Shown: in pieces, positions 2,440-57,053 of the stretch
Layout: every line of letters starts with the position of its first letter
Numbering within the stretch: position 1 is the stretch's first letter
NCBI GenBank assembly: GCA_029204225.1
Contig: CM055094.1
Span: 9,593,234 to 9,657,233 of the forward strand
Reading direction: 5' to 3'
From: Diphasiastrum complanatum
Lineage: Eukaryota > Streptophyta > Lycopodiopsida > Lycopodiales > Lycopodiaceae
DNA: 64,000 nucleotides
Notes under the pieces: generated by a model
The model's database searches: none
What the model was told of the DNA's origin: nothing
Seen by the model: the letters and a program-made list of their open reading frames with translations, nothing else
Translations under genes and position numbers: made by a program

Positions 2440-4790
2440 TTATCCAGGGAGCATGTGATGATTCGGGAATTAGTTGTAAAGCATATACTCTATTGTTTAA
2501 AATTGTACAGGAAGCCTTTGCACATGTGAAGATTTGATAGCTACCTCTTCCTCGTCCATTTAGAGTAAAAAAAAACAAGAAATTGCTTATAGGTGAACCA
2601 TTTCATATCAAGAAATTGTATACATGTGAGAGTGGAACATTGGAATACAATGAGTCCAACAATTTATTTTTGGATATTAACAAAGTAGTGGCATACATGA
2701 TTAAATATGACAAAATATTTGAAAGAGAAGTCCAAGGAAAATTGATATTGGTTATTAAACTTGATGAGTTTGAAATTGTTAAGGGATAAAAATTGGAATG
2801 GGTAAGTATCACCTTTATGAACAGAGCATTGAACAATACTGAAAATGATGCAGATGATTCCTTATTTAGTGTTCAATCAGAGAATGAAATATGGTGGTTA
2901 GCAGCATTTCAAGTATATTTCAATTTTACTTAGTATTGTATTTTATCACCTAAGTTGCTGATGTCGATGTTCGTAACTTTGTATGTGTTTGTTACTTTTC
3001 AGGTTTCAAAAGAATACCATGCTATCTTGTCGTGGATTTTTTTGACATCAAATTATGCGAAGATTATCCTGGCTGCTGTTGCTGACATGGATCTAGCTCT
3101 TTGATGAAGGTTTTGAGCTGTTTTTCAACAACCCACCAAGGCTACTGTGCCACGGATTTGGAGCTCAAGCAAGTAATCCTGTATCAGGCTTCAAAGCCTG
3201 ATCAGCTCAACTTTCATTTGTTTTTGCTCTTTTGTTTTTCTTCGTTGCTTACATGCATGATGCTGATTATTGTGATTTTCATGTGTCTGAGTCAGAATGG
3301 TTTCACTTACTATCTGCTATCCATTTCTTTTGGTTTTTGTTCGTACTGCATTTCTTCTGGCCTTTGATACGTGAAAGTAATGCAGAAGCTCGGTTGAATA
3401 GATCAATGGAACTAATGGACTAGTATTGCAAAGTAGTTCAATTTCCAGCCATTGTAACGGTTCCTTAAGGTTTTGGGAATTCACCAAACTTAAACGTGCG
3501 TTCTGTGGCCATAGCGTGTGTGAGATCCAGCTACTTCACCATACTACTGCAGTTTCCGAAGGTTCTCACTTATTGCGACACTGGTTGTGACTAACAATAA
3601 TTTATAAGATATAAGCGACTTATTTCATACTGACTTTTAGAGAAAACAAAGTTTTCCGAAGAAATGCTGAAGCGAAGAAATAGTAGTCTACGTGTGAGGA
3701 AAGTCATGGGCTTATTTCAGAGAAATCTTTACAAGTTTCTGTAGCCACACCCCTTGCGTACAAACTTCTGTCACATCTTTATTGACCGGAAACAAAATAT
3801 ATGTGCCAAACTATGGAACGTTTCAAATTTTATGGCATCTTGCAGCTGATTTAAAGACACTGAAATGTATGTATAATGTTTCGCATGGAGCAAATACTAA
3901 ACACCCTTGTTTGTATTGTATGAAGAATTGTAAAGACTTGAATTTGACAAGATCACGAGTTGGTCCAATAAGAGATCGAGAGGATCCAAACTTTAGACCT
4001 GTGTTGGCAATTCCATTGATCAATGTTCACATATGCACATTGCATGTTGAGGTACGAATTATTGAAAAATTGATTTACAATCATATTTTGTATGTCTGGA
4101 ATACCAAACCTGAATCAGCTTCTAAAATTGGAATTGAGAGATTAGAGCAAGTACTTTCAAAAGCAGGTTTGCACAAGGGGAATGTAAAAGTAGAAAAAAG
4201 TGAAAAACTATTAGGTAAATCAGGGAACGTTCCAAACAAGCCATCAGTTGAAGGTGCAAAAGCTAGAAGGTCTTTATCCAATCACATTGGAAAGTCTTCT
4301 ACCGTGACATAATGTTTGGAAAGACGTTGTTGCAGCATCAAAAGATTTTGAAGGGAGGGGCAACACAAGATTAAAAAAAGTTGCAGTATGGCAAAATCTC
4401 GACAATTTGATTGGCATGTTGCAAAAAGAAAAGTTATCTGAAATTGACATTGCAAATTTACAAAAATATTGTGAGATATTTGTCAAATCAATAGTGGAAT
4501 GTTGGGGAGAGGATCATGTTACACACTATATGGTAATTCACTATTTGTTTTTGTGCAAAAATTGTTCTGCAATGTCATATATTTGATTTCAAATATATGT
4601 ATTTTACTGGTTGCAGCATATTCTATTACATCACACCACATTTTTTGCAAAAGAATATGGAAGTATGAGCATATGGACTTCTCAAGGTATGGAGAAATCG
4701 CATTGGCAAGCAAGAGGAGCTTTTCATCGAGCAACCAACCGTGGAGGATATAATTCAAAGAGATGTTACTTATATTAATTATTTCAATGG
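2440..4790 (+). pseudogene. Gene 1, copy A: transposase-like protein, truncated and broken
   Basis: This is the homologue of the minus-strand gene at 54550-57053. It starts abruptly in VIQGACDDSGISCKAYTLLF (copy B has VQGACDFAGISREAYATIF) directly against a gypsy fragment, so the N-terminal coiled-coil exons are lost. Matching blocks follow in order: EPFHIKKLYTCE...YNESNNLFLDIN (2590-2680), IKLDEFEIVKG (2757-2787), VQSENEIWWLAAFQ (2874-2910), an intron-like gap, KEYHAILSWIF (3010-3042), a 0.7-kb foreign stretch (about 3075-3785), then LAADLKTLKCMYNVSHGAN with KHPCLYC (3840-3925), LSKAGLHKGNVK (4150-4190) and YGSMSIWTSQGMEKSHWQAR (4653-4713). Several stops and frameshifts break it. The Asp in ADLK, the CxxC and the Glu in MEKSH suggest a DDE/RNase H-like transposase; the superfamily is unassigned. 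It is tail-to-tail with gene 2. Confidence 0.7.
3075..3785. mobile_element. Foreign segment interrupting gene 1 of copy A
   Basis: In copy B the stretch after LSWIFSRTSYPRIIKDH runs directly into VEWHLAGDLKTLK. In copy A about 0.7 kb of unrelated sequence separates LSWIFLTSNYAKII from ILWHLAADLKTLK. I recognise no protein or terminal repeat in it, and it could be an insertion or a long acquired intron. Confidence 0.4.
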
Positions 4791-4920
4791 TTTTACAGAA
4801 GAGCACAGTTTAGATATCAAACCAAATATTTAACAAATCTCATTTCATTCAAAAAGACATTTCAACATTTGAGGAGAAATAGTTCAACTTCATCATCATA
4901 ATAGAAAAACAGTTAAAATA

Positions 4921-6357
4921 TTAGATATCCTCATCGATATCAAAGGTCAGTTGAGTAGTATGGTCATGAAGAAATTGTCTCCTCTCATATGGATCCAGAT
5001 GCTCAATTGATCTTCTTTTGCTCAACTCTATGTAACTTGCGTACACTGCTAAAGCAGATGATCTTTTGGGTACATTTTCAGAAACATAACCCAATATTTT
5101 GATAGCTATATCCCTCTTCACAAAAATAATTTTGTATGTATTGTCAGGATATCTATGTCCATCACAAAATAGGACAATGCCTTTATTGCCATTACTATAG
5201 TTCCTACTTGTGAATAAAAGTTGTCATGTTGAATACAAATTTCATTTTGTACAAAGTATTTCACGTAATGGCACAATGTTGAATCCTTATGGCCAACAAC
5301 ACCTCGGGCACCTCCTCTTCTCATAGCAAAATCATCAATTTCAATAGTGTCCTGCAACATAAATACAAAAATTTGTAATCAGTTATAGTTTCAGATGGAT
5401 TTTGATTGAATACAATGCTAAATATGATTATAATGGAATAAGAAAATAAAAATTACCATGTCATGCTGATCATACTCCAACAATCCTTTTTCACGCAAGT
5501 CATGCCCAGCAAGAAACGTATCCTCAGAAAAAACGTATTGCTCTGAGGAGGATATCTTTTTTGAAACTCAATGAACTCCTCCTCACTAGGAGCATTTGCG
5601 CCATAGACTAGACATTGTTGCCTTGTAATTTGTAAGGCCTGCTCTCCAGACTTCCAACCACCTTCATCGTGATAGTCAATCCCTTCAATTAAATCATCAT
5701 GATTGAAGTCTATTATATCTGAAAATTTTGACAATGCTTTGGCTAGTACAGATAGGATCTCGTCCTCTCTCATGTCGAACACATCTCCAATATCATTCAA
5801 TGATAAATATGGCAGGCTATTCATATGGTATATAGGAATGTCGAGACATCGAAGCCAGCCTAGCCTCCTCCTCATCACCCAATACTCCGTCTTCTAAATT
5901 TTTGTCCACATCGACAATAAATCTCTGAGTTGTTCTACTTGAAGAACCAACACCAATTGATCTGGAAGATTGGCCTTCATCAAGTATTAACGCAGATATG
6001 AAGAAAACAAAAGCTATGCCCTCAGCTATAAACTTGCATGATCTCCTATGGGATTCACAATATTGTACCACCTTTTAGGCTCTCGTCAAGCTTGGTAAAC
6101 TTCCTATCATGCTTTTGCTTGGCTTCAGGCTGGGCAACTATCAATTCATGGAAATGAATAAACTTCAGGCCATCAATAAAAAGAGATAATTTGAGGATGC
6201 TAGTCCAAAACATTTCGAATAATTCTAATAGGTGAGACTTGTGCTCAAGCACAAATCCATCAACATCAAATTTAAGACGAAAAAACGATGAAAAGTACTC
6301 AATTTTGTCTAGAACACCAGCGTCACAAAGAAATTTATGTAGCTTGTCAAATTCCAT
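4921..6357 (-). pseudogene. Gene 2, copy A: unrecognised protein conserved with copy B
   Basis: This is the homologue of the plus-strand gene at 52739-54298. The start chosen is ATG at 6357 (MEFDKLHKFLCDAGVLDKIE), which aligns with LSLFLSEFGITENLDYF of copy B. Further matches are FIHFHELIVAQPEAKQKHDRKFTKL, a Cys block (VQYCESHRRSC), NDIGDVFDMREDEILSVL, DIIDFNHDDLIEGIDYHDEG, EEEFIEFQKRYPP and, after an intron (5352-5456, GT-AG), DTIEIDDFAMRRGG...IVMAIKALSYF and YASYIELSKRRSIEHLDPYE. The intron is at the same place as in copy B, after the equivalent residue. Single-base shifts near 5540, 5880 and 5118 break the frame. I recognise no family. It is divergent from the H3-like gene and convergent with gene 1. 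Confidence 0.65.
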
Positions 6358-6687
6358 ATCAGAAATGACAGAGAACACTAGATATCGGATATTGCAGGCA
6401 CGCAAGGAATGGAGACAATTCGAATCGACAAAGAGACTATCATGTGGCAGCGATATCAGGCAAACAAGCATCTAACAATATTTCAGGCACGCAACGGTGT
6501 GCAAGAAAAATAGAGAACAGTAGCAGCGTCGCGTCGTAGCGATATTCGGTAGCTGAAACAAATATCCGATATCGCAGGCACGCGAGGGAGTGATGGCAAA
6601 TAAAATCGAACGTAGTGGACTCACGTGGTTGCGATATTGCCTTGACGATCTCTGAATAGCAAAATATTTTATGGCACTGTTTAGCCC

Positions 6688-7028
6688 TTATATAGATCCC
6701 GCAGATTCATCGTAATCGTTCAAAAATCACCGTTAGATATGTGACACTTCAAAGATATGTCAAGTCCTATAACACGTGTGAATCATTTATGTGAAATTTT
6801 GGCCAAATCCATAGGTGACATGTGTGTGGTTGAAAAGAGGACACGTGTATCCGCACGTGTGGAGGAACTATCAATAAAACACATGAATCAGAATTCGGCA
6901 CGTGTGTGGTTGAAAATATGACACATCTATTTGCACGTGTGGAGCAATCATTAATAGGACACACCAATTAAAAATTGGCACGTGGCGCTTTTTCATTTAA
7001 TGCACAAAAAATCTCTCTCTCTATATAA
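6688..7028. promoter_or_regulatory. Bidirectional promoter between gene 2 and H3-like gene, copy A
   Basis: A TATATAA box faces left at 6688-6694 (for gene 2) and another faces right at 7022-7028 (for the H3-like gene). Between them, from about 6745 to 6980, is an array of boxes built on CACGTG or CACATG, for example AACACGTGTG, GACATGTGTG, GGACACGTGT, GCACGTGTGG and GGCACGTGGC. These are G-box/E-box palindromes of the kind bound by plant bZIP and bHLH factors. Copy B has the same layout. Expression itself cannot be judged from sequence. Confidence 0.65.
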
Positions 7029-7258
7029 GTAGAGACCGTGAATGAAAATCATTTGGCTACCAGATTTCTGAATCGTTCCTTGCTCTCTCTCACAGAAACT
7101 CAGAGTCGCGCGACCATCAACATTATTTCTAATAGGCCTGGTTGCTTCTCGCACCGCTGTGATATTGGAATCTCTTGGGCTGAAATCGGAGCCGCACGAG
7201 GATCTGCATTTGAGTAACTCATCTACGACCTAGTCGCATGCCTGCGATATCAGAAGGA

Positions 7259-7603
7259 ATGGAAAGAACTAAACAGACCGTGCATCCAAAGTCTACTGTC
7301 TCGTCTGCTGGTCAAGCCACATCATCCTTGCATCCTGTAGCTACTCGACCTCGCGCTAGGGGAACTGGCAAAAAACCCTGCCCATGGCTCAGAGATATCA
7401 GGAGGTTACAGAAGTCCACCAACCTTCTGATACCGAAAGCTCACTTCAACCAAATAGTGAGGGATGTGACAATATCTTTGTCCGTGGATGTCAGATGGTG
7501 CGTGACTACAATTGAAGCATTGCATATAGCCTATGAAGATTATCAGATTAGACCATTAGATTTTCATAGCCACCGGGTATACTCCTGTCAATTGACCAAT
7601 TAA
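7259..7603 (+). CDS. Histone H3-like gene, copy A (divergent variant, C-terminus altered)
   Basis: The frame opens as MERTKQTVHPKST, recognisably the H3 tail start ARTKQTARKST with Lys4 retained but Lys9 not clearly so. A 30-residue divergent tail follows, then PWLRDIRRLQKSTNLLIPKA, which matches the H3 alpha-N helix ALREIRKYQKSTELLIRKL. Next come HFNQIVRDVTISLSVDVRW (H3 PFQRLVREIAQDFKTDLRF) and CVTTIEALHIAYEDYQI (alpha-2). The loop HxKRV may survive as HSHRV, but the alpha-3 helix is not recognisable and the frame ends at 7603. It is a strongly diverged H3 type, not a normal replication H3. ATG 7259 is chosen over 7238 because it starts the H3 homology. A TATA box lies at 7022-7028. Confidence 0.75.
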   Translation: MERTKQTVHPKSTVSSAGQATSSLHPVATRPRARGTGKKPCPWLRDIRRLQKSTNLLIPKAHFNQIVRDVTISLSVDVRWCVTTIEALHIAYEDYQIRPLDFHSHRVYSCQLTN

Positions 7604-7604
7604 T

Positions 7605-8200
7605 TCTTTTTTCCTTCGAGTATACCTTTTCAGATATTCTTTCTCTTTTTGGCTTATTGAATTCAACTGGGTCTAAATTCGGGTTGAATAGCCAATTTTT
7701 CTAAATTGTTTCAAAAATTGGATTTTTTAAATCTCCCCAAGTTATCCTTAAATCAGGTTCAATTGGGTAAACCATGTTCTAGTTTCTTTTCTAAGAAACC
7801 AAGAAATATCCTCAATTTATAAACATCAAAATATTTTCTATTACTCGCAACAATCGATTGAAATTGAGATACATAACTATCTGCATCTTCTGAGACTTTT
7901 TCCTTGAAATAATCATATCGGATTTTAGAAGAAGATAGTCTGAGAATAGCCATATCTTTCGGATCACTTTGATTAATCTGGTGGGATGGATAATTCTTTT
8001 TTCTCATATTCGTTTTCTGATATCAAAAGTTTCTTATTATCGGGTTTCCTTCTCTGATCAGTATTGGTATCTAGATCCTAGTTTAATTCTCTTTCCCGTT
8101 CTCTACATCTCCATCTTTCTTCTTGTTCTTTTCTGTCTTTCTCGTCATTTTGAACTATGTTGGCCTATTTTAGTCACATGATAGTTTTTTTGTTTTTTAT
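7605..8200. other. Downstream of H3 copy A; possible gag scrap
   Basis: After the H3 stop the similarity to copy B ends. A short minus-strand frame (7759-8007) contains YDYFKEKVSEDADSYVSQFQ and LGFLEKKLEHGLPN, which resembles a gag domain fragment but is too short to be sure. The rest shows no coding signal. Confidence 0.3.
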
Positions 8201-9600
8201 TATTCTAAACTTTTATAGATTCTTGAACATGTGCATTGGATCTAATGGATGATTTATCAACAATTGTCCCAAATAAAAAAGTTTATAGAGTATAGACAAC
8301 CTCTTCAAACCAAGAAGAGAGCATTGTAGATCTTGATTGGGTCTCCATATTTGAAGCTAATCACTTGCCTATTAATAAATAAGCATGGATGGAACTTGAT
8401 CAACAAAGTCATAGATGTTAATTATTACAACATAAATAAATAAATGCTACAAAATGACAATTTGTTTGTATGTTTTACCTTGAAAGCATGGGGTCTATGT
8501 CTCAAAATGTGACTTATTTTGAAATGAGTCAAATCCTAAAAAGAGTAACCATATAATAGTTTTTAAAGTTTTTTTTTTTCAAATTAAACATACTCTTTGA
8601 AGTGAAAACTCTTGAAATTCACAAAAATAATTAACATAAAAACATATACTTTGACCCAAAAAAATAAGTACATTATGCCAAAACAGTATAAATTTATCAA
8701 TAAAATTCAAAAAATCAAAATTTTCCAATATATGAGCAAAATACATAAATATTTATGATAAATTAATAGTCTAAATTAGCTTTTAAAAAATAACTTGTAT
8801 AATACATTCAATACTAATTATTCTAAATCCACAAATTTTTGAAAACACTAAAAATATTTTTACGATTCAAATTCCAAAGAATTTTCACTCACTTCTCTCA
8901 ACTCAACGTGTGATATTTTGTCAAGACTTTCATTTTCAGGTGATGAAGTTGATGACTCGTCTTTTTTATCATAGTCTAATGGTAGACTCATTTAAGTCAA
9001 CATTCAATATTGACAAAAAATTTCATTACAACTTTGCTCCATTGCTACCCTCCATGGCTACCAAGTTAAAGACGATGGTTAATCTAAAATAGTTCTATAA
9101 TAAACATTGTTGACTTTTCATAAATGATCCATCATTGTCAATTAAAAATAAAAAAATAAGCACATTCGCATGTTGAAAATTTACATTATCAAGTTGATTT
9201 TATGTTGAGCACTTTCTTTTGTCCTTTGGATCTAATTGTAATATTTCTAATTTCCATACATTCTTAAGAAAGCATTTGTTGAAGTGGTCTACATTCAATG
9301 CACATGCACAATTTTTGTCATGTTGTTGTTCTGAATAAACCTATTAATTGATTTTTTAAAACAAAATAATTAGGCTAAATAATAATTTTTATGTGATGTT
9401 TGACATTCTTTTCATATAGAATTGATTAAAAAATAGTAGGTGATAAGAAACAATTTGGCTTGTATAGCCTATGCCAAGGGGGCCCCCTAGTTCACCCAAA
9501 AAAAACTACCAAATTTGTCTAAGTTGAATAGCCTTATAATTGGTTCTAATATTTCACAACATGGCCTCAAAGTCATTCATAAGTGGTAATTGTGCAACCC
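8200..9600. other. AT-rich non-coding stretch
   Basis: This 1.4 kb is AT-rich with many poly-A/T runs and no frame longer than about 60 codons that resembles a protein. I see no terminal repeats or RNA genes. Confidence 0.5.
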
Positions 9601-9629
9601 AGCTTGTGTAAATTTAACACTCCTCCTCA

Positions 9630-10010
9630 CAACTAGTTTGAAGATAACATAGACTTGCCTAGGGCTGATCTTAACTTCACAAATGCAGCTCTTTGAAGTA
9701 GTTTAGTGAGGATATCAGCAATACATTCATACTTGCCACATGCTTCCAAAGATATCTCCTTTGATTGCACCTTCTCTCTCACAAAATGATGAGAGATCTC
9801 AATATGTTTTGACCTTGCATGGAAGATTGGATTGGTTGCAAGGTGTTGGGATGAAATGTTGTCATTGTAGAGAGGTAGAACAACATCTAAACTCATGACT
9901 TTCAGCTCCATAGGTAGTCGATTACCGGACCACTTAGTCTTGGCGGCTTTTATAGTTTGATGTCTTTTTCTGGAATCCAAATAAATTTTTTGTTTTTCAT
10001 TTTGCACACG
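9630..10010 (-). pseudogene. Ty1/copia RNase H fragment
   Basis: The minus strand encodes a copia RNase H C-terminus: LYNDNISSQHLATNPIFHAR followed by SKHIEISHHFVREKV and ECIADILTKLL. These are the 'CDNxSAxxLAxNPxFHxRxKHIExxxHFVREK' and 'ADxFTK' motifs of plant copia elements. The RT upstream is missing and no LTR is visible nearby. It lies inside the region between the H3 and DUF7869 genes of copy A and probably is one of the insertions that spread those genes apart. Confidence 0.85.
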
Positions 10011-10659
10011 ATATAAAAATCTGGTTTGTTGTAGAATAGTTGAGGATTTAATTGTCGTTGTTAAAATTGTTGATCTTAATGGCCAATAAATTTTTCAGAG
10101 AACTTTTATCTCCCAAGTTAATCAAACTAAATTTTTGTTAAAAAATAAAACCATTCATCAATGTCGATCAAACTCATCAAAAGGTTGGTGCGGTACTTGA
10201 ATGGTTTCCAAAATATTAGTCGTTGAAGGGACAAGGATTTTAAAATTTGCAAGAATCTGTTTGGGCGTCGGTATAACCTCTCTAGAAAACACAATATTTC
10301 GAGATTTATACGAGGTCTTGAGGAATTTTTGATATTCGTAACTTCTAAAAATAGTGAGTTTTCGTAGTCTCAATTTTTTGAGGATTATTTCGAGGTCCTC
10401 AGTAAATGTTGAAATCGAATCTGAGTTTTGGAGGTGTGAATACAATATGGTCATTCAAAGGAGAAAAAAAGCTCTTTTCTCTATATGCCTAACCTTGAAA
10501 TCTAATTGTAAAACAATGATCCCTTACCTTGATTCTTGTAAATTGGACTCCTAGTATACACAGGTCGAGAGAGACTCTTTGTATATTCTAAAAATAATAA
10601 GTTCTAACGGTCTCAACTTTGTGAGGGTTATTCCCTTGATTCCCATAATCCTTTATCTC

Positions 10660-11270
10660 AAAGCCCGTTATCCCAAATTCATTTATCTAGATGGCTTACT
10701 GCTAAAACCTTACACCAAAAATCCTAAACCCTTAACACTAAATCCTAAGCATTAAACCTAAATCCTATATCCTAAATCATAATCCCTAAACCCTTAATCC
10801 TAAACTTATTGCCCATTATGCTAAATCATTTCCCTAGATCTCTTATACTAAATTCCAACCCTAAGTTCTAAACCTTAAAATTTGACATAAATCCTAAATT
10901 CTAAACCCTAATCCTAATCCTATTCCTAAGCCCTAGAACCTTAGAACCCTAGAATCCAAAACCCTAAACCCACTAAACTCTAAGGCCTAAGTTGTAACCT
11001 CTAAATCCAAAGCCCGACCCTAAACCCTTAATGATAAATCCTAAACCCTAAGTCGTAGACCCTAAATCCAAAACCCTTGAATCTAAAACCTAATCCAAGT
11101 TACCTTGAACCACTTATTCTAGATCCCTTAGCTCCCTTCACTAGATCCTTGAATCTAAACCGTAAGCCCCTTACCCGAGATCCATAAGCTCCTTTCCCTA
11201 GATCCCCTAAAGCTCCTCTCCTCAAAGCCATTTACCCAAACTCCTTACTACAAATCCTAAGGGTTAATTA
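10660..11270. repeat. Degenerate telomere-type (CCCTAAA) repeat tract
   Basis: About 600 bases consist of variants of the plant telomere unit on this strand, for example CCTAAACCC, AAACCCTAAACCC and TAAATCCTAAACCCTAA, interspersed with diverged forms (CCTTAAA, CCCTTAATCC). Spacing is irregular, so this is an old interstitial telomere-like or degenerate satellite tract rather than a working telomere. Confidence 0.75.
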
Positions 11271-11279
11271 AAGTACAAG

Positions 11280-13100: not shown

Positions 13101-13736
13101 ATGTGGTAGTAGTTGTTTTTGCTACATTCAAAGGCTCTTATCCTAGTGAGAGTCATTCGCTTGCTACTGTGAAACTTATTTCAATAACCATAGAAGGAAA
13201 CATCGTGAATGCCATGACTGAGGACGAAAACCCTTTCTATGCAAAAAATTAATCAATTATTTGGTGTTTGTCAAAACTTTCATTCCATTTTCAAAGGAGA
13301 AACCAAGTATCATTTGACAAGACTTTGAATGAGTGTTTTACATATTGCGTTGACAATTTCACAAAATTGTCATCCAAGGGAACAATGACCAAACGTGTTT
13401 CAAATAGAAACAATACGCTAGGATCAACGTATAACTCAAAATTTCTAACAAGTCTAGAAGATGTGGTTGATCGTAATATATCAAGATTGACATATACAAA
13501 ATATGCATTGTCATTAGAAAATATATGCAAAACTTTGATGCATTCGACAAATCACCTACAAAAAATGTGAAGACTTTTGATTAGGTGTGTGGATAAAAGG
13601 GAAAGCTGAAAGGCATAATCACTTGTTGCAGATGTTTTCATGTTTTATTAATAGATAAGAAAAGTCAAATACAACATCTATAATATTCGGGAGGAACCCA
13701 AAATGTGCTTCAAACCAACAGTAGCTAGGAAGATGT

Positions 13737-15746
13737 ATGCTCAAAAGCATATTGCTTGAAATCTCCCATGGAATGTTTTGGCAAGTAATTGCGAAGGCGC
13801 GTTACAACATTGTATACAAATTCCATGGAAATACGGGAACTTTCAAACAATGTGAACATTCACCACATGGGCTGGCCGTAATGCATGGGATTCTAGAAAA
13901 GCATATGTTACCTCAATCGCATGTACAACATGTATCAAAAAATGGCATTGTTCTTTGTGAACACCATCTCCCCTTGGTATGCGTAAAGATGATATATTCT
14001 CTTGTATGTCTACAGTTTCCAAAACAACACTTTATCGGATGTGGAGACGAGAGTTTGGACATCTGAAGACTCCGACAAAGCAAAGAATGTCGAAATGCAA
14101 AACATGTGATGACCTCAAAAATGCGATGGCGACAATTCCTAACACTAGGATGCATAATCATTATATTGCAATGAGAACTCGTCATCTGCATTGTGTTTTT
14201 TATTCAAGAAAGTTGTAGATGTATTGGAAAGAAGAATGAAAATCACATCCTGAGCAATCTTTGTTTCTCATCATTGACGAAATGTATCAAAATACAACAA
14301 CATTATCTCGTTTCAAGAGGACTCCTCCCAGATTAGAGGGTAGTCATTTTTTAAAAAATGCATGTTTGAGAGGTGCTAGTTCATGGATTCAAATTGCTCT
14401 ATGAAGTTTGAATTGATACCTTGGATGCTCATGATAGCAACCAAGTTGCCACATCAATAATGAAATAACACATGTGCATGCATCACGTGGTAAATTGCCT
14501 CCGATCTTGCATATCCAAGCCGACAATTGTTGGAGAGAGAATAAGAATAAATTTATCTTTGGTCTTTGTTCTTTGTTAGTGGCGCATATAGCATCTTTCA
14601 AAAAGTGAAAATGGGATTTTTAATGGTTGGCCACACACATGAAGAAATTGACCAGGTTTTGAGTGTGATATCCAAAACATTGAAGTCCAATCAGGACTTG
14701 CAATGCAAATATGCTAGCACGAATTGGTCAAAAGATAGGTGGCGGTGGTACCGAAACAACTCAAGTAGAATTTCTGGAACGAATGGTAGATTGGAGAGGA
14801 TTCATAGATCCACATATTATTCATGGAAATCATGGCTTGGAATGTCACACCAATCCTCAATACTTTTGTTTTCAAAGGCTGAATGGTGAGCCAACCATCC
14901 AATGGAAATACTATTCTAATGATGGAGACCACTCACGGAGTGAACCTTTCAAACTCTTGAAGTGTGTACCATCAAAAGATGAAACAATCTTCTTAGCACC
15001 CACAAAGGACTTGGATTCGGATGAAGTTAAAGGAATAATGTCCTTCATTGATTACTTACAACATATGAGTCTAAAGTTTTCGGAATACAGAGACCACAAT
15101 GCTGTATACATGGATGAAAACAAAAAACTTCTTGAGTATCTTACCAGACAAAAGAACTTGTCAACGTCACTACATAGCCAAGCAACTTTTTGGCCGCAAT
15201 CTTTGCCAAGCACTTTTGAGCCAACTGGACCAACTTCTAATAATGACATCCAAATGGATGCAGAGTTGTTACCCCATAAATTTTGTGATCAAAAAGGTGA
15301 TGTACCTCTATCTGAATTCACAACTAGAAGAGAGGTTGCACTGGACAAATTTGTTGCAATTCGGCCTCTAGATGAGGCTATTGCAGAGGGAGCTCCTATT
15401 TGGATGGCAAAGGTTGTCGAAGTGAAGAATGACGTTGAAGGTTTGGTCACAACTTTCAAAGCATTACGGGATGAACCTAAATCAAACCGAAGGCATGAAA
15501 ATGATAGAGCAATCAACAACAAGGAGCTATGCAAAAATTGCCTATTGAAAGGATGGGTTTCGAACAATGACGGACCACAACGACGATGCAATTATTTTTG
15601 CATGGAAATCAAAAGAAAAAAAAATAGTTAAGACACATGGCTATATTGTGGAGAAATCAATATCTATTCCATATATCTCTGTGGCACAAATCAAGGAGTA
15701 TCTGTCCAAACTATCTGATGAATGTACAACCGATATTGATGAGTAG
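13737..15746 (+). pseudogene. DUF7869-type DDE transposase-like gene, copy A
   Basis: The decayed frame shows, in order, TLYRMWRREFGHLKTPTKQR and SKCKTCDDLKNAM (14030-14130), FLIIDEMYQNTTTLSR with a candidate first catalytic Asp (14260-14310), then LHIQADNCWRENKNKFIFG with the second Asp at 14522. FLMVGHTHEEIDQVLSVIS (14610-14675) follows. This 'DN-x-x-x-ENKN ... GHTHEdID' signature is that of DUF7869 proteins, which are widespread in eukaryotes. The C-terminal part has VEFLERMVDWRGFIDP, a GAPIWMAKVVEV block resembling a small Tudor/BAH-like fold, and SISIPYISVAQIKEYLSKL. A frameshift near 14615 and another near 15570 break it. The extent upstream of 13737 is uncertain; weaker matches begin near 13100. 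Its relative position and direction equal copy B. Confidence 0.65.
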
Positions 15747-46754: not shown

Positions 46755-46787
<33 letters not shown>

Positions 46788-47158: not shown

Positions 47159-47227
<69 letters not shown>

Positions 47228-47658: not shown

Positions 47659-47693
<35 letters not shown>

Positions 47694-47850
47694 ATGAAAC
47701 ATAACTAATACATGACAAATTATAATCCTACAAATTAAAATAACAGGAATAAATTAAGATCCTACAAATCAGAGTAGCATAAAGTAGTAAGCATGAAACA
47801 TAAAAAAATGACATCACACTTACGCTTACACGCACAAACGCACACAACAT
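46740..47850. repeat. Tandem array, about 480-bp units ending in CT runs
   Basis: CCTACAAATCAGAGTAGCAT occurs at 46801, 47284 and 47761. Each of the first two units continues through an ACACGCACAC-rich part, CGTATGATTATATCCTATT-like sequence and CTAGAATTGGGAGTGTTGGT, and ends in a long (CT)n run (47163-47220 and 47659-47690). The third unit is cut off at the DUF7869 gene of copy B. Confidence 0.85.
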
Positions 47851-47854
47851 TGTA

Positions 47855-48970
47855 TCAATTAATTTTGGACTTTGGCAAAACATCAGCTACACATGCATCA
47901 ACCAATTTGTACAAATACTCCTTGATGTGTGCTCGAGAGATTTTTGGAATAGATATTGATCTTTCGACATCATATCCATGTTTCTTTACCATCTTTTTTG
48001 CCTTGGTTTTCCATGCATAAATCACAGCAGCAATATCTACATCTTCTACACTGTCATTGTTTGGAACCCAGCCTTTTGAAAGACAGTCTTCGTGTAATTC
48101 TTTGTTGTCAATTGGATTGTTTCCACGTCTCTGAGTGGATTTAGGCTCATACCATAATGCTTTGAGTGAAGTGACCATACCATCAACATCGGTCCCTACT
48201 CCGACAACCTTTGCCATCCAAAATGAGGCTTCCACTGCAACATCTTCATTTGGAGGTCATATTGCAACAAATTCGTTCATTGCAACCTCTCTACTAGGTA
48301 TGAATCTTGATAATGGTGCATCTCCTTTCCGTCCGCAATAATGATGAGGTAAGAGTTCTATTGTATCCATTTCGACTTCGGTGTTCACATTAGAAGACAT
48401 GCATCCTGAAGGTTGAAAATCAATTGTAAAAGATTGTGGCCAAAAAGTTGTTTGGTTGTATGTTGATAGTGGCAAATTCTTTTGGTTTGTGAGGTACTCA
48501 AGAAGTTTTGTGGTTTCATCCACAGATGAGAAATTTTTATCTTTGTATTCTGGATACTTCTCGCACATATATTGTCCATATTTATGAAAGGATATCAATC
48601 CTTTCATCTCATCATTGTCCAGTTCATTTGTGGGTGCCAAAAAGATCGCTTCTTGCAACAATCTGAAAGTTTCACTCCATGTATCATCTCCATCAGTGCA
48701 ATAATACTTCCACTGCATGGTAGATAACATATGAAAATATCCAAATCCATGAAAAGTCAATAATAAATGCATTCCACAAAAGGATTCACTCTCAACAACT
48801 TATGACGAATCAGATAGTGTCCCAATCCAACGAAAAGGCCACTATACAAGATCCACGGACATAATCCATTTCCACAAATAATAAATGGCTCTATGAATCC
48901 TTTCCAATTCACTATTCGTTCTAACAACTCTACTTCAGTAACTTTAGTACGACCAACCCCTCTGCGATTT
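47855..48970 (-). pseudogene. DUF7869-type gene, copy B (C-terminal half)
   Basis: Matches the C-terminal half of the gene at 13737-15746. It has TEVELLERIVNWKGFIEP (about 48910-48965), TMQWKYYCTDGDDTWSETFR, FLAPTNELDNDEMKGLISFH, TKLLEYLTNQKNLPLSTYNQ, TFWPQSFTIDFQPSG, ELLPHHYCGRKGDAPLSRF, FWMAKVVGVGTDVDGMVTSL, CLSKGWVPNNDSVEDVDIAA and SIPKISRAHIKEYLYKLVDA. This copy retains the full C-terminus through LPKSKIN. Stops and frame changes occur near 48250 and 48790. The catalytic N-terminal half with the Asp and GHTHEEID motifs is missing; above 48970 other DNA begins. It lies on the same side of the H3 gene, and in the same direction as that gene, as in copy A. Confidence 0.75.
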
Positions 48971-48999
48971 ATGCCTTAGGCAGATTCCTTTGCACAAAA

Positions 49000-49790
49000 A
49001 CTATAAGTATCTGATACCTCTGATAAAAAATTTCTAGAGCGGGAGATTCTAAAGCATCTGATACATATATAAAGAATATATATACATATATAATTAAAAA
49101 AATTCAGAATCTCCCGCCGCGGTGGAAGGTTTTGAGGCCACGTTTTTTAAATTATTATTATTATTATTATTATTATATTTACATATATATATATATTTAA
49201 ACTTGTATACACTTTTGCGCATGTGTATGGGTGCACCCATGCATCCTCCTCCCCTCACCCATGCATACAGATTTTTTGAACTGAAAAACTTGGGGAGGAG
49301 GATGCATGTATGGAAAAAAACATGCATGGCCCTCCTCCCCATGCAAAATATATACATTGGCCACTGTCCAACTTCCAAGTGGCAGTGCATATTCAAGATA
49401 GCCACATTTTTTTATTGGCCACCTTTTCAAGATACCCAAATTTTTAATATAACCACCTTTTCTATTTAGGTTATCACATTAGGATGAATGTGTAATGGGC
49501 CACTTGAGTCACTTGATCCTCTCTCTCTCTTTTTCTTTCTCTCTCTCTCTCTGTATGTGTCTCTTTTTCTTTCTTGATCTATGTCTCTTTTTTTTTCTTG
49601 ACCGCGAATTCTATCCTATGCATTGAGCAACCCTGTGTGTCTCTCTCTCTTTGGACGTCTGGATTTTTCTTTGGATCTCTGGATCGCGAGGAAGGGGTGT
49701 GAGGTTCTCTCTCTCTTTCTCTGTCTATACTACATAGCCTATATTGCCCATCTTTTCATGTATGAGGTTCTGTGTCCTTTCTCCTTTTGC
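49000..49790. other. Foreign or non-coding DNA beside DUF7869 copy B
   Basis: A 12-base perfect inverted repeat, GCGGGAGATTCT (49039-49050) and AGAATCTCCCGC (49106-49117), lies at the edge. A (TTA)n/(AT)n tract then runs into TTTAAACTTGTATACACTTT, which resembles TTTAAACTTACATACACTTT at about 60045-60064. No gene is recognised. Confidence 0.4.
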
Positions 49791-49792
49791 AT

Positions 49793-50093
49793 TTACATCA
49801 TAAGGAGCAAGATTTTTCGTCCAACAGTCTGTACATTTCTTTGATTTGATTCTACAAAGTTCTGAATATTTTTGTATGCATTAGGAAAAATATAATGATC
49901 TTTCTCAATAAAAACCATGTGCCTGTCATAATTGGCTATCTCTACCAACCCATCCCACAATGTATTCATCATCCACCACCAACGATGCTTCAAAGACACG
50001 ATACGGGGACTTCTTAGAGAGAGCGATCAAGTAAGCAATGGAAACATCGATTGATTGACATTAGAGGAGTTCTCAATATCAAAAAGACCCTTT
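49793..50093 (-). other. Exon-like block sharing 35 identical bases with 57540-57574
   Basis: On the minus strand, after an AAAG, the sequence reads GLFDIENSSNVNQS, interrupted by one stop, and continues as SLKHRWWWMMNTLWDGLVEI and MVFIEKDHYIFPNAYKNIQN. The first 35 bases are identical to 57540-57574 on the other strand. I do not recognise the protein. It lies between the H3 and DUF7869 genes of copy B. Confidence 0.4.
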
Positions 50094-50524
50094 GTAAAGA
50101 TACTTTTATTTTTTTTCTTAAGTTTTGACCGTCACAAGGTCCAATCAAAATGCACAGATTTGAAATCTACGTAACGTAGTTCAAATTAACTAAAAAATAA
50201 AAAAGCAATATAGAAAACTTTGAAATTTGTGTCCGGGCAGTATGGACGTATCCCATTGGGTTCTTCTTCCTACCCGACACGTGCTAATCTGCCCAACGTC
50301 AATACCTCAAGTTAAATTTACTTTACTATGCTGGTTAGTATAATGAAATTTTCTAACTATACTAGTTACAGTTATAGAAATATAGTATGTACAGTTACAT
50401 AAAATATGGTATACATAGTAACTGTGACTATGTTGGCATTCACATTAGATTAAATGTGATACGAAAAATTAAAATTAAGTAACATATCAGAGAGATTTTT
50501 GGCGCCCAAGTTTTGAAAATATCA

Positions 50525-51480
50525 ATGGCAAGGAGACTCAGATCGACAATCGATTCTGTGATTCTTTACAATGAGAAAGATGAAGCTGATAACTGGAAGC
50601 CAACAAAATATACAAAGAACTCATGGGTATTGTTGCATCCATTATCAAAGGGCAATTTTTGACAAAAGAAAAGAGCAAAAATAACTTATAAATCTTATTG
50701 GAAAGCAAAAAATTTGGAATTTAAGACTACCCCGAGAGGTCAATCGATATCAGAAGTCTTAGCGCAACATGTATATATGCATTCAGAAATCAAAGTACAT
50801 GATATCAATCCTCATGATCATCAAAAATGTAATTGTAAGTATATCAAAACATATGCACTCTACATCAATCATAGGTGATTTCGTTTATTGATGCTCTTCA
50901 GATTATGATTTAAATGCTTCAACATTGTTTTTTTCTTTCAAATTTATATCCATCATGCATAAGTGAATGGGAGCCCGCACAATCACTTGTAGGAATATTA
51001 GACGTGATTCACTCTGATGTTGGAAAGCTGCAATACAGAGGAAGAAGTCCAAAGGAACTTGCAGATTGTGGTATCTATTTTTATGAATCTTTATATACGC
51101 CACAAACAGATGGAGGTTTTGGCAAGCTCGAAGCAATTCCATTGCCTAGTTTTCAAAGTGATGAGTGGCCTACTCCTGACAACATTGTTTCTAAATCCTT
51201 GAGATGCAAGCTACTCATTGATATTAAAAATGCTATGAAGATAAGCACAGGCTCGAAAATTGTTCACCTAAGTTGGGTTATCTCATTGCATACATTTGTT
51301 GATTTTTTCTCGAGTGCTAGTGTTCGTAGGACACCAACTTTATTTGTTTGCAAGGATTTATCAGATGAGACTTTGTTTGATCTCATGGACTATAGCAACT
51401 ATAGGAGTATCCAAAACAGAGGTAGCTATATTTACAGCATTATCTACAATGGGTTTTGGGATAGGCTTCACAGAATCTGA
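50525..51480 (+). CDS. Unrecognised multi-exon gene in copy B, tail-to-tail with H3
   Basis: It starts at ATG 50525 with MARRLRSTIDSVILYNEKDE and continues KYTKNSWVLLHPLSKG. After a one-base shift near 50657 come YWKAKNLEFKTTPRGQSIS and VLAQHVYMHSEIKVHDINPH up to a GTAAGT donor near 50834. A later open block (about 50965-51480) has EWEPAQSLVGILDVIHSDVG, RSPKELADCGIYFYESLYTP, QTDGGFGKLEAIPLPSFQSD and KIVHLSWVISLHTFVDFFSS. The sequence is protein-like but matches no family I know. No counterpart was seen in copy A. Its 3' end overlaps the C-terminal extension of the H3-like frame on the other strand. Confidence 0.45.
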
Positions 51481-51955
51481 AGGGTTAGGCTTCACTTTCT
51501 TAGGAGCACGCTTGGGGACTGTTTGCTTCTTAGGACGCTTTGTAGGAAGATTAGTCCTATCTACAGGAGTTGGTCTAGGAGTAGCAGGCTGAGATACATA
51601 TAACCTACAGTACCTATCTCTCATTCTCATTAGAAGCTGAAAATCCTTGGGCATTATGGTAACTCTCTTGGTATGGATGGCGCAAAAAAAAATCCTCAAA
51701 AAAAAGACTAATATAATCTTCAGCAGCCTCCTAAAGGCACTGAAGAGCACTCGGTGTGAATCTAACGTGGACAGCACAGTAGAATGGAGCTCTTGGGATC
51801 AACAGAGTTGTTGACCTCTGATACTTGCATATCTCAGAGAGCCACCTGCTGCGGTTGTGCATTCTAGGTCTAGCAGGTGGTGTGATGGCAACCGCAGGAG
51901 ATGAGGATGAGCCAAGAGAGAAGAAGTCCCTCCTTTTTTGCTTTTTTCTATCCAT
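51361..51955 (-). pseudogene. Histone H3-like gene, copy B, with a long basic C-terminal extension
   Basis: The frame opens MDRKKQKRRDFFSLGSSSS. After a divergent tail it has RWLSEICKYQRSTTLLIPRA, matching H3 ALREIRKYQKSTELLIRKL. The alpha-1 region is shortened (FYCAV then VRFTPSALQCL), and a TAG stands where H3 has the Gln before EAAE. EAAEDYISLFFEDFF follows, and after a shift in a 9-A run comes [20 protein letters not shown], almost the canonical H3 end [20 protein letters not shown]. The frame then extends about 80 residues past the usual H3 end with a Pro/Lys-rich stretch (RTNLPTKRPKKQTVPKRAPK). A stop and a shift make this copy broken unless the window has base errors there. It is divergent from gene 2, as in copy A. 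Confidence 0.82.
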
Positions 51956-52266
51956 GGGCGTGAACTATGTGATAGCGAACTTGTGCATGAAGGTTAGGAT
52001 GAGAAGGGAGGGATGATAAAGAACTCGCAGAGGACCGCTATGTACGGACAGAATGTACGGTATATCGGACCTATGCGAGCCGAATATCAGAGAGAACGAT
52101 TATATTTGAGGAAAGACGCACAAGTGCGATATGGGATGACACGTAGGCAGATGTATCGGACTTGTGCGCATGGAAGGCAGTAGGAGGAATTTCGATTGTG
52201 AAGGGCATGCACAAATGCGATATGCGAAGTGAAAAAAAAAGTGAAAAAAATTCATCGAAATTTGGG

Positions 52267-52561
52267 ATTTTATATCGGGGTTCACACGTGCAAAAGAACA
52301 TCCTGTCACACATGTGGGAGTTATACGGACAAATGCAAGAGCGACATGTGTCATCCTATCACATTACACATGTAGAATTTCTACGATCGAATGCGAGAGC
52401 GACACATATTTATGAGCAATCGAATGAATATGCGACACGTGTCCAGGTGTCATTTCACACATGTGCGGGTGTCATCTCACATGTGCCTGCACTTGTTGTG
52501 CAATTGAAAGTAGACATGTGTCCTAAGTCCATTGACCACACGTGTGAAAATTTAGTATAAA
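52267..52561. promoter_or_regulatory. Bidirectional promoter between H3-like gene and gene 2, copy B
   Basis: TATAAAA faces left at 52267-52273 (H3 side) and TATAAAT faces right at 52556-52562 (gene 2 side). Between them lie about ten CACGTG/CACATG boxes: TTCACACGTG, CACACATGTGGG, GACATGTGTC, TTACACATGT, GACACGTGTCC, TCACACATGTGC, CTCACATGTG, GACATGTGTCC and CACACGTGTG. Repeats of a second motif around TGCGATAT lie just outside the two TATA boxes (52117, 52214, 52678, 52762 approximately). Copy A shows the same plan. Confidence 0.65.
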
Positions 52562-52738
52562 TGGCACAAAAACCGAATAATTGTTTACTTTATCGTTCTC
52601 GAAATTTGTGACATATCGCTTTTGTGCGCGCTCATTGCTGTTTATTTGCTTGCAACTATACCTACTCGCGCACAAGTGCGATATTCTGTATCTGTATGTT
52701 GTACATATCCATCTTCTGCGCCATTTTGATAGTTAGTT

Positions 52739-54298
52739 TTGGTTCAGTTCTCCCACATGCACAAGTGTGATATTCACGTTACTGCCACGGCCTCTTCCTC
52801 ATCATCCTCACGAGAATCAGGCTTGAGTTTATTTCTGAGTGAATTTGGGATTACTGAAAACCTAGACTACTTCCACAGTCTATTCAGGCCATATCTACAT
52901 GTTTTCGGGACTGCACAACCAAACTCTGACGTATTTTATGAACATTATGTCAGATTCAGAGATCTACTTAGCAAGCATGTTTTTTCCATAGGTCCACTCC
53001 AGTACATACATTATACTGATCTTGTTCATTTCTTCCCAGCTTTTAGACATAGACTGGATAAAATATTCACCAAATTGTTTAATCTTTTCAAAAGTAGTTC
53101 AATGTGTCCGTATTGCAACAAGAAATGTCGATTGGTTGAATATCAGAGTGGTTTCATACTTTTTCTATTAGTTCAGATCCCAGATGATGATGAAGTTCTT
53201 GTTGTTGACCCTCCTTTTGCACCCTCCTCTATTCAGTCAGCCATTAAGGATATCAGTCACTTTCTTATCGACACTCTTGATAAAAAAAGTGACTTCATTG
53301 ATGTAAATACTGATGTTCTCCGAGATTCTTTCATTGGCCAAAATATATCTAATGATGAATCCAAATCTATGAAGGATTTGGAATGTCTTTTCAATTTGCC
53401 TGTATATTATATTAATGACGATGTATATTTTATTACTGCTGATTTATGTAAACTTTTTTGCTATCGTGAGGATGAGGTTCTATGTTTATTATCCGGCACA
53501 ATTTTTGAATTCTCTGACTTTTTAGATTTTAAGACAGATGACCTTGTTGCTGGTATTGATTTTGATGATGAGGAGGGTCTTATGACCGGTGAAGAATGCC
53601 TGAATAAGGCTTTATCAAATATAGCTGAGGATGCGAGAGGCAGACCATCCGATGAAGAATTCACGGCATTTCAATCCCAGATGGGCTTCCCTCGTCCATC
53701 ATTAATGCACTTCACTAATGATTCCACTTTAGTACGTGGTCATTATATTGATCATCCTGATCTAGTTGTTGTTGATGATGAAGAATGTGTGAGTGTTTAA
53801 TCTTCTTTGCATTTGAATGTTTTCAATCACTGAATGTGTTTTTGCTAACATATTTCCTATTGTAGGATGCTCTCATAATAGATGATTTTGCTGCGAGACG
53901 AGGCGGTTTCAGACAGCACGCATCCTCGTTCCAAAGGGACAGTGGATTGGGCTACTATCTTAGGCATTTCTTAAAGAATGAGACCTATATTGCTCATTCC
54001 AAGCTGAGCCCAATCGGGGAGAGTCTTATAATGGCAGTTAAAGCTTTATCATTTTATCTAGGAGGACATAAATTTGTTAAGACAAATAAGATCATTTTTG
54101 TCAAAAGATCTTAAAGTTTTGAACATTTTAGACTTTACTGATGGGATATTCCTTTAAGGAGCTCCCATTATTCATTGTATTCCACTTATATTGAGCTTAG
54201 TAGAAATAAGGATAATGTACATCTATTAGATGCATACGCTAGCAGAGCTTCATGACAATACTACCATAGAATCTGATACAAGATCTGATGATGAATAG
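52739..54298 (+). CDS. Gene 2, copy B: unrecognised protein, largely open
   Basis: Exon 1 (52739-53788) is open for 350 codons. Blocks are LSLFLSEFGITENLDYFHSL, QYIHYTDLVHFFPAFRHRLD, a Cys block SSMCPYCNKKCR (possible zinc site), VLVVDPPFAPSSIQSAIKDI, LPVYYINDDVYFITADLCKL, FCYREDEVLCLLSGTIFEFS and DFKTDDLVAGIDFDDEEG. A 77-bp GT-AG intron (53789-53865) leads to exon 2: ALIIDDFAARRGGFRQHASS, GLGYYLRHFLKNETYIAH and LIMAVKALSFYLGG, to a TAA at 54112. Similarity to copy A continues past this stop (YSTYIELSRNKDNVHLLDAY) to about 54298, so the stop is premature or another splice is missed. No known family is recognised. The first 25 residues are uncertain; copy A starts at the equivalent of LSLFL. 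Confidence 0.65.
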
Positions 54299-54549
54299 TT
54301 GACACTTTGTATTTTGGTATAATACAATCAATACATTTACATTGGGTATTTCTCCTCTCTTGTTCAATGAATTTGCAAAGCAATTTTGAACATGTCATGA
54401 TGATCTTCTACTCAGCAATGATGATCTTCTACTCAGCAATCATCTTATTTTCTCTTCCTGTATGAACTTGCATGCTTTTCTAAACTTGTTATATTGTGTG
54501 GACTTTGTTATATGTCGAATCTGAACTATGCGGTAGAACCACTGAAACA

Positions 54550-57053
54550 ATTGACAAATGTAGTTTCATTTTTCATTGGTTCCTCCATGTTGTGTATTTC
54601 GATGAAATGCTGCTCGTGCTTGCCAGTGTGACTTCTCCATTCCTTGTGATGACCATACACTCAAGCTTCCATATGTATTTGCAAAAAATGTTGTATGATA
54701 TCTTAGTATGTGCTGCATATGTCAAAATCATAATGTTAGTCTTATGTTTTGATCTAAATATATATGAAAATTTGAAAGCATTTTGAAAATTTTATACTAA
54801 CCATGTAATGAGTGATGTGATCTTCTCCCCATGCTTTTGATATTGCATTAACAAACTCGATAGAAGTCTTTTGGACAGCTTTCTTATCAATATCAAAGTA
54901 TTTTTTTTTCTTAAAATAGCAATCATACTATCAAGCTTTTTCTATACATCAACTTTTAGTACTCTGGTTTTGTCATCTTTCTCGAAGTCCTGAGGTGGCA
55001 GCAATAATATTTGTCCAGACTGAGTGTTGAATATTAGAAGCCTTACCAGTATAATTTGATATTTTGCTCCTCCTATGCTTGGCTTACTTGGCATGTTCCC
55101 ATTCTTTCCTGAAAGCTTTTCATCTTTTTGAATTTTGACATGTCCTTTATGGAGTCCTGCTTTTGATTAAACATCTTCTAATCGAGAGATAGCTTCCTTT
55201 GCTAATGATGTTGACTTAGTATTCCAAGCAAAAACTATATGAAGATAAATGATCTTTTCTATTAATCTAACTTCTGCATAAGGGGATAGGCAGCACAGGC
55301 TTCCAGTTTGGATCTACATATTCTCTAGTAATTCTTGAACTCCTAGTTACATCTTTTGCCATTTTCATGTAGTACAAACAAGGGTGTTTTGATGTAGCAC
55401 CGTGAGAGACATTATACATACATTTCAATGTTTTTAAATCACCTGCTAAGTGCCATTCAACATTGAAGTCTCCAACTCCTGGAACATTGAGAAGTCCTCC
55501 ATCCATATGGTCCTTGATGATCCTAGGATAGGATGTCCTTGAGAATATCCATGATAATATATCATGATCCTCTTTCAGCACCTGTCCAAAGAATTAATCA
55601 GACTTAGTTTACAATGTATTAATACTATTCAATGAATGTAATGTAATAATGAGGCTAGTTACCTGAAACGCTGCCAACCACCATATATCATTTTCTGATT
55701 GGACACTGAATTTGAAATCTTCTTGGTTCTATGTTTGTGATAGAGCACCATTCATGAGAGTTATACTAACCATTTCCATCTTCTGCCCTTTCACAATTTC
55801 TGACTCATCTAACTTAAGTACTATGATTATTTTGTCATTCACATTTTTCATAGGTTATATCATAGAATGTGACGATGTATCTCAGCAAGTAATTTAGATC
55901 AACAAATAAATTGTTTGATGAATTATAGAATATCAATCTTCCATCAGCTTTATACACCTCCTCAATATGAAATGGAATTCCAGTGATCTTATGCATACCT
56001 ATGTTTAATGTATCCCTCTCTTTCTTCAAGTGATATGTCCTAGGAATTGGGACTTTTCTAATTTGGACTTGCTTAAAAGCTTCTCTAATTAGTTTAAATA
56101 TTGTTGCATATGCTTCCCTACTAATACCTGCAAAATCACAAGCACCCTGAACTATAATTTTATCTAAAATATTTTGAATGTCCACCATCAAAGACTCTGC
56201 TATTTTACACTTTACATTTGAAATCTTATTGTTCATCATGATACGCTCAGTGGATTTGCAAGTCAATATTGTGTCCAATGACATTCCTAGTAAAGCATTG
56301 TCTTTAATATTCCGAGGAGCTACTAATGCAGATCTGCAAAAAACAACAGATAGTTAACAGAATATCACCATAGCTGAAATTAAATCCAAATGTCATTGAA
56401 AAACTTACAAAATTCAAAATATGCTAAGTTGAATGCACGGATTCTTCTATTTCGATAACCTCCTTTTGAAAGCGTTTGAATATCCTTGTAACTTTGTCGC
56501 TTTCTCTTCTTACTTTCAGCCTTCTTTTTTACCAAATCCACATCCTTCAGTAATTGTAAGTTTTCAATACGAATAGACTGTAAGACTGATTGCATTTGCT
56601 CTAGTTCTGATTTGATATTGATTGTTATCTTCTGTAATGATTCATTTTTTTTTTAAGTTGTTCATTTTCTTCTAACATCTTTTGGAGATGACAGTCTCTA
56701 TTCTGACAATAAGAGGATATCCGAATTAACTCACCTTCTAAAAAGTGAACTTTATTCATTTAAAGTTATTTTCCATGGTTTTGCAATCTTTCACAATATC
56801 CTAGTAATCCACTATGCCCATTGCATATCCATGTAACTAAATGAGTTCTTGAAGAGAATGTGGGATGTGTCAAAGTGCTTGGATCTTGTAGATATAATGT
56901 TCCATCTGTCCACAAATCCAAGTTTTTCTTTCCTTCTGCCTTGTAACGAGAACGATCTTTAGCAGATATTTGAACTCCTTTGCCTCCTCTTCTCAGCAAA
57001 GGTGCCAAATCAATAGGGATATCCACATGTAGATGATATAATGTCATCATCAA
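54550..57053 (-). pseudogene. Gene 1, copy B: transposase-like protein, most complete copy
   Basis: Reading down the minus strand: VDIPIDLAPLLRRGGKGVQI and WTDGTLYLQDPSTLTHP (57020-56870), a Cys-containing coiled coil (NRDCHLQKMLEENEQLKKK, then LQSIRIENLQLLKDVDLVKK), GGYRNRRIRAFNLAYFEF to a GTAAGT donor (56407), and after an acceptor (56335) LVAPRNIKDNALLGMSLDTI. Next are IIVQGACDFAGISREAYATI, IGMHKITGIPFHIEEVYKAD and, after a shift near 55845, VLKLDESEIVKGQKMEMVSI. Then come KEDHDILSWIF, WHLAGDLKTLKCMYNVSHGA with SKHPCLYYMK (CxxC reduced to CxxY), VDPNWKPVLPIPL, SKAGLHKGHVKIQKDEKLSG, WGEDHITHYM and finally YGSLSVWSSQGMEKSHWQAR (54660-54610). The order Asp-CxxC-H/C-Glu suggests a DDE transposase with a zinc subdomain; similar 'GDxK...N..x..PCLWC' proteins occur in animals and fungi. 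This is inference. It has several stops. Confidence 0.68.

Follow-up and report, generated by a model that had tools for sequence, protein, structure and literature searches.

How does a gene for a histone H3-like protein come to lie, with the same neighbors, at two places within one stretch of plant DNA? The question is raised by a window of 64,000 nucleotides (the whole stretch analyzed) from Diphasiastrum complanatum (GenBank assembly GCA_029204225.1, contig CM055094.1, positions 9,593,234 to 9,657,233 of the forward strand), in which the original prediction, made from the sequence alone, had described a four-gene block occurring twice in inverted orientation, here called copy A and copy B. 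Our analysis traces the two blocks to two subfamilies of a single lineage of cut-and-paste DNA transposons, of which they are relics; this lineage very probably has the histone in its core gene set. The complete element is ∼7.5–9 kb long, is bounded by terminal inverted repeats of 35–37 bp that start 5'-CATTAG, makes no target duplication, and carries four genes: gene 1 (g1), gene 2 (g2), the H3-like gene and g4.

Comparison of window positions 1–20000 with 44001–64000 by blastn gave five inverted matches of 66–81% identity, all of them coding, and no matching DNA between the two copies outside the genes. By tblastx, gene 1 pairs at 2403–4826 with 56191–54503, gene 2 at 6342–4996 with 52823–54225, H3 at 7319–7447 with 51910–51782, and a DUF7869 gene at 14738–15737 with 48960–47879; order and direction agree for all four. 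The double, inverted block is thus borne out, and three of its genes (gene 1, gene 2 and H3) belong to the element, while the fourth element gene proved to be g4 and not DUF7869. Stops or frameshifts are present in both copies, and gene 1 of copy A is without its 5' part, where a retrotransposon integrase frame (1654–2439) abuts. Neither a scan of copy A for both known repeats nor inspection by eye of the CATTAG/CTAATG sites in 1–20000 yielded a convincing pair of ends, and g4 was not found near this copy.

The ends of copy B are clear. The terminal repeat of subfamily 1, to which copy B belongs, reads CATTAGAGGAGTTCTCAATATCAAAAAGACCCTTT and stands at 50059 and 57574, identical over 35 bases; these ends match boundaries common to five other loci (L016, L019, L022, L023 and L028). 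The subfamily 2 repeat has 37 bp and begins CATTAGGGCCCTTTTTGGACTC. We recovered eight complete copies: copy B (7,516 bp), L023 (7,755), L010 (8,809), L027 (8,697), L014 (7,946), L026 (8,412), L011 (6,404), and a short copy of 1,090 bp in L019. In five of the eight, the two ends agree at all 35 or 37 bases; L010 and L011 have one mismatch each and the L019 copy has two. Seven have CATTAG...CTAATG ends, and in L011 one end is CTATTG. In the whole genome, 5,176 contigs with 1,744,706,496 bases, we counted 695 + 715 (1,410) exact matches for the first 25 bases of repeat 1 and 429 + 439 for the first 22 of repeat 2. The total of 2,278 exact termini is a count of ends, to which short and broken copies contribute, and not of elements; the reversed-pattern controls gave 0.

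The mode of insertion can be read from the 1,090-bp copy (L019:2249–3338 as fetched), which is gene-less, has subfamily 2 ends, and is nested in the g1 of a subfamily 1 element; it is a non-autonomous derivative mobilized by the same lineage. When its flanks are joined, the junction shows no gap in alignments to the intact g1 of L028, L023, L016 and L022, and to copy B, whose own small deletion lies just upstream. The insertion was precise, with a 0-bp target duplication. The sequence at this one empty site is GTTAG/ATTAA; like it, the flanks of the remaining complete copies are unlike AAATTT, into which Spy transposons insert. Direct repeats at the flanks are absent from six of the eight complete copies, the others having 1 bp (L026) and 2 bp (L011).

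To what extent do the genes travel together? From 6,325 first-look candidates in the genome, 150 were scored with the Histone profile, giving 153 matches, of which 150 are listed. Thirteen of these, at 163.7–165 bits, were set aside, the five that we read being canonical host H3 genes; the remaining 137 among those listed lie on 36 contigs, including all of C1–C23. We fetched 20 of the 137, all without a stop inside the match and chosen before their neighbors were known, and every one of them has at least one further element gene: g1 in 16, g2 in 19 (in L025 as a 60-bp piece only, inside the element) and g4 in 16, where 16 of the loci were read over 10 kb only and some absences may lie farther out. 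An independent starting point gave a similar picture. A search with the first frame of copy B gene 2 (355 aa) gave at least 114 matches in the genome (its own included) at no less than 82% identity, from 9,610 first-look candidates, and those listed lie on 40 contigs, including 22 of C1–C23. Among the matches listed there are 13 pairs of g2 and H3-like genes within 10 kb; few were expected, because the pairing covers only the matches listed. Eleven of the pairs are divergent, all in the same arrangement with ∼840–860 bp between the genes; in the remaining two the starts are separated by 6.7 and 6.9 kb. In four loci chosen by g2, each read over 10 kb, g1 was present in all four, H3 stood at the expected place in three and at an unexpected place in the fourth (L044), and g4 was not found.

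The gene order is g1+ g2− H3+ g4− in subfamily 1 and, read in the same sense, g1+ g2+ H3− g4− in subfamily 2, so that the order is kept and the two inner genes are flipped; among rearranged loci, g1 is inverted in L022 and g4 in L021. These repeat-bounded, dispersed copies support the original prediction of a large transposon lineage that carries its own H3 variant together with genes 1 and 2 at many loci. The shared terminal repeats that it anticipated appear when copies are aligned to their common boundaries, and the target duplications that it also anticipated are absent.

The distribution of exact termini is locally uneven. Twelve subfamily 2 termini, all on the minus strand and 53–250 kb apart, lie at G000:C1:48608620–49758129, a run that possibly reflects large tandem duplications carrying the element, and ∼28 subfamily 1 termini form a local cluster within 1.7 Mb at G000:C1:64973859–66677520.

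DUF7869, by comparison, is judged not to belong to the element. Its gene near copy A matches Pfam at 2e-14 and 1.9e-13 and lies 6 kb from the H3 of that copy. The gene near copy B lies beyond the terminal repeat, and its identity rests on likeness to copy A, because the two pieces tested match no Pfam family. No comparable gene occurs in the 20 other element loci, one of which has a 20-residue scrap, outside the element. The like position beside both copies is best read as the chance neighborhood of another old repeat, and the two diverged DUF7869 copies in the window are probably a separate transposon family. Pfam gives no function for DUF7869, and no paper naming it was found in the literature searched.

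What kind of histone does the element encode? The first residues of the copy A protein, MERTKQTVHPKST, align with the H3 tail, and its frame stops short of the last part of the fold; copy B matches the Pfam Histone family in two frames (1.2e-4 and 1.4e-5), both just below the curated cut-off. Better kept copies are more informative. In L009, tail and fold lie in one open frame of 412 residues, with the fold starting at about residue 320 after a linker of ∼310 residues, and the H3 histone fold is kept (Pfam Histone 6.8e-29). The fold is readable in one frame in 14 subfamily 2 loci, 11 of which have an upstream frame that begins MARTKQTAR (10 loci) or MAQTKQTAR (one locus), compared with MARTKQTARKSTGG in the five host H3 genes read. 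The K9 position in these 11 tails is D in ten and G in one; past ARTKQTAR no H3-like tail was seen in subfamily 2, and the conserved K4/K9/K27 tail of H3 was not found there. The linker contains SR, glutamine and proline runs. The histone of subfamily 1 has a short linker and a basic C-terminal extension. Compared with host H3 over 87–93 residues, identity is 54% for the fold of subfamily 2 and 56% for that of subfamily 1; between the two subfamilies it is 48%, both being clear H3 folds. An H3 tree groups each subfamily together and does not settle whether there was one capture or several.

Descent from a centromeric H3 was considered, the first half of the copy B histone having its best match in CENP-A/Cnp1 (E 4.7e-4); it is less likely, as the best Protein Data Bank matches of the better kept copies are canonical H3. 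Three long H3 proteins (P0016–P0018) were also considered as relatives; they are without the ARTKQTAR start and group with neither subfamily.

The original prediction saw DDE-like transposases in two of the genes. For gene 1 this holds: structure prediction and Foldseek give its relative P0001 a RAG1/Transib fold, with D404, D501, C521, C524, H755, H760 and E779 as candidate residues of its catalytic motifs. Compared with the RAG1 residues that we take to fill the same roles, the short spacings are close (D-to-C, 20 against 19; C-to-C, 3 in both; H-to-H, 5 in both; H-to-E, 19 against 20) and the longer ones differ (D–D, 97 against 108; C-to-H, 231 against 207). A Harbinger-type DDE neither matched gene 1 in Pfam nor appeared among the folds listed, which does not exclude that type. 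For gene 2 the claim does not hold as far as the Pfam and protein searches made can say: they returned no transposase similarity, and among 5.8 billion proteins nothing related was found at E 0.001; its structure model, from three sequences, is unusable (predicted local distance difference test, pLDDT, 41.5). Between subfamilies, the C-terminal pieces of g2 are 31% identical (6.3e-12; the 355-aa part reaches only 0.058), and the g4 proteins are 33% identical (6.5e-19). In the fern Adiantum nelumboides, an annotated protein (P0015) joins a DUF7794 domain to a gene 1 piece, perhaps by exon capture or as an annotation artefact.

How might such an element work? The product of g1 would cut and join at the CATTAG ends and, with less weight, the histone may shield the element from silencing or build chromatin on it during transposition, a role that, judged from sequence, is quite possible if short of probable. 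The ARTKQTAR tail of subfamily 2 could bear H3K4 methylation; because Asp stands at K9, the histone cannot take H3K9 methylation, with which plants silence transposons. We advance only tentatively the fuller picture, in which a RAG1-fold transposase, 0-bp duplication, and a private H3 that can be marked at K4 and not at K9, dressing the element DNA or the synaptic complex, would together make a self-made, silencing-proof chromatin.

Several observations weigh against these interpretations. The P0001 model is middling (pLDDT 64; predicted template modeling score 0.52), the Foldseek TM-scores are low (0.20–0.31, depending on the query), and the last catalytic Glu falls outside the aligned range, in a region where the model has low confidence. 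Profile searches gave no sequence-level match of g1 to RAG1 and no match to any Pfam transposase, a comparison that covered RAG1 and Pfam rather than CACTA, Mirage, Chapaev and Transib sequences one by one. Ten of the 11 tail-bearing copies of subfamily 2 have a frame broken between tail and fold, and the start codon of the histone is unsure because MSEE or a variant of it precedes the tail, in frame and after a stop, in all 11. In subfamily 1 the tail is altered, to MDRRKQTRRD in most readable copies. The ratio of nonsynonymous to synonymous change (pN/pS) is 0.35 against the majority sequence (28 synonymous and 33 nonsynonymous changes in 14 copies), a value biased low because the copies were chosen by their score to the H3 model. 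Finally, L013 and L017, both counted among the 20 loci, may be one locus on two haplotypes: they are 99.2% identical over the whole 10 kb including the flanks, and L013 is on a 37-kb contig.

Alternative explanations can be ranked on the same evidence. The histone could be passive cargo, a host H3 captured by transduplication and of no use to the element. Host gene capture by plant transposons is described as common in the available part of one source (PMC3538342), most copies are broken, and a complete short copy (in L019) has no genes at all. Opposed to this, the histone accompanies the same genes in two subfamilies whose repeats differ, and copy A holds a relic of it; the folds have diverged to below half identity and both remain clear H3; ARTKQTAR is retained in 10 of 14 subfamily 2 loci; and pN/pS is low, for what the biased sample is worth. 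We regard passive cargo as possible and, on this balance, not likely.

More doubtful is an H3-like protein acting outside nucleosomes, with ARTKQTAR on its long linker serving as a decoy or tether for host K4 readers, methyltransferases or demethylases, or guiding g1 to open chromatin, much as the PHD finger of RAG2 guides RAG. The long linker in the intact L009 frame and the RAG-like fold of g1 would suit this; a decoy has no need of the good H3 fold that L009 keeps, and in subfamily 1 the linker is short and the tail altered. It is very improbable that the blocks are fossils of a large histone-carrying DNA virus. Some large viruses encode H3, according to the accessible portion of one source (PMC9145170), but the four genes lie between short terminal repeats and include a transposase-like fold, and scans of a viral collection, word-based and therefore weak evidence, found no relatives of DUF7869, g2 or g1. 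That an ancestral host cluster with H3 was duplicated long ago and is left only at these loci, the main alternative of the original prediction and one that the strong divergence of the window copies and the lack of matching DNA outside their genes would fit, is next to impossible given the terminal inverted repeats, the precise empty site, the 2,278 exact termini against none in controls, and the dispersal over all of C1–C23.

Table 1. Features of the two blocks in the window (window coordinates).
Feature	Position	Strand	Basis or remark
Copy B, whole subfamily 1 element, 7,516 bp	50059..57574	−	identical 35-bp terminal inverted repeats
Terminal inverted repeat of copy B, g4 side	50059..50093		CATTAGAGGAGTTCTCAATATCAAAAAGACCCTTT
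Terminal inverted repeat of copy B, gene 1 side	57540..57574		35 bases identical to other end
Gene 1 (g1) of copy B, broken, RAG1/Transib-like transposase	54503..57086	−	tblastx with copy A; fold of relative P0001
Gene 2 (g2) of copy B	52733..54252	+	first frame, 355 codons, open
H3-like gene of copy B, frameshifted	51364..51964	−	Pfam Histone in two frames; subfamily 1 relatives
g4 of copy B	50495..51432	+	89% identity to L028 g4 over 160 residues; 27–33% to subfamily 2 g4
Gene 1 (g1) of copy A, 5' part missing	2403..4847	+	catalytic motifs readable
Gene 2 (g2) of copy A, broken	4924..6471	−	
H3-like gene of copy A	7259..7603	+	begins MERTKQT; fold cut short; Pfam Histone 1.4e-8
DUF7869 gene near copy A, judged outside element	13725..15743	+	Pfam
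DUF7869-like gene near copy B, judged outside element	47858..48975	−	∼1.1 kb beyond terminal repeat

Elsewhere in the window, Copia-type retrotransposon frames and repeated, inverted segments of up to 98–99% identity lie between the two blocks (25964–28735 and 30140–37164); they are recent retrotransposon copies. Degenerate AAACCCTAA-like repeats at 10691–11093 resemble plant telomere units, here inside a chromosome arm.

It is instructive to compare this element with known systems. Close in content is a hAT element of the fungus Pyrenophora tritici-repentis that carries an H3-like gene, H3L (Manning et al. 2013, PMC3538342). As far as the available part of that paper goes, the two share terminal inverted repeats, a transposase, an open reading frame of unknown function and an H3-like gene with an altered N-terminal tail; the fungal element has a hAT transposase, 5.6 kb, and 10 long and 16 short near-identical copies, whereas the element described here has four genes, a transposase with a predicted RAG1-like fold, ends that number in the thousands, several subfamilies that have diverged, a plant host and a 0-bp duplication. 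With the CMCT clade and RAG1–Transib, as covered in the excerpts of PMC12730594, it shares 5'-CA..TG-3' ends and the RAG1/Transib fold of the g1 relative; it differs in its 0-bp duplication, compared with 2–5 bp in the CMCT clade, in having no sequence match to RAG1, and in carrying H3, g2 and g4. Insertion without target duplication is also known from Spy (PHIS superfamily), which, in the part of PMC4482050 at hand, inserts in AAATTT and has one gene, for a Harbinger-like DDE transposase; in the present element the one empty site is GTTAG/ATTAA, and the fold predicted for the transposase is RAG1-like. Other transposons carry epigenetic genes (Vandal anti-silencing proteins, SET methyltransferases, TET/JBP dioxygenases), as the same excerpts of PMC12730594 present them. 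There too a gene of the element might influence how that element is silenced, although the products are enzymes or regulators and not a nucleosome component. Viral single histones, such as bracovirus H4 in the accessible portion of PMC9145170, likewise place one eukaryote-derived histone in a selfish or viral genome; they belong to viruses or their derivatives, with H4 the best-studied case, while here a transposon carries H3. Exact-word searches of one open library found no plant transposon with a histone and no histone in a RAG1-like element.

Transposons with silencing-related enzymes or regulators, and one fungal hAT with an H3-like gene, are thus already known. What the present element adds is a histone among the core genes of an old and very large lineage in a plant, one that has retained the H3K4 tail and lost K9, and chromatin made by mobile DNA from its own histone becomes a directly testable question. 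If the reading is true, a RAG1-fold plant transposase that leaves no target duplication would widen the range of the enzyme family behind V(D)J recombination and, counting the fungal hAT element, H3 would have been recruited by transposons on at least two occasions.

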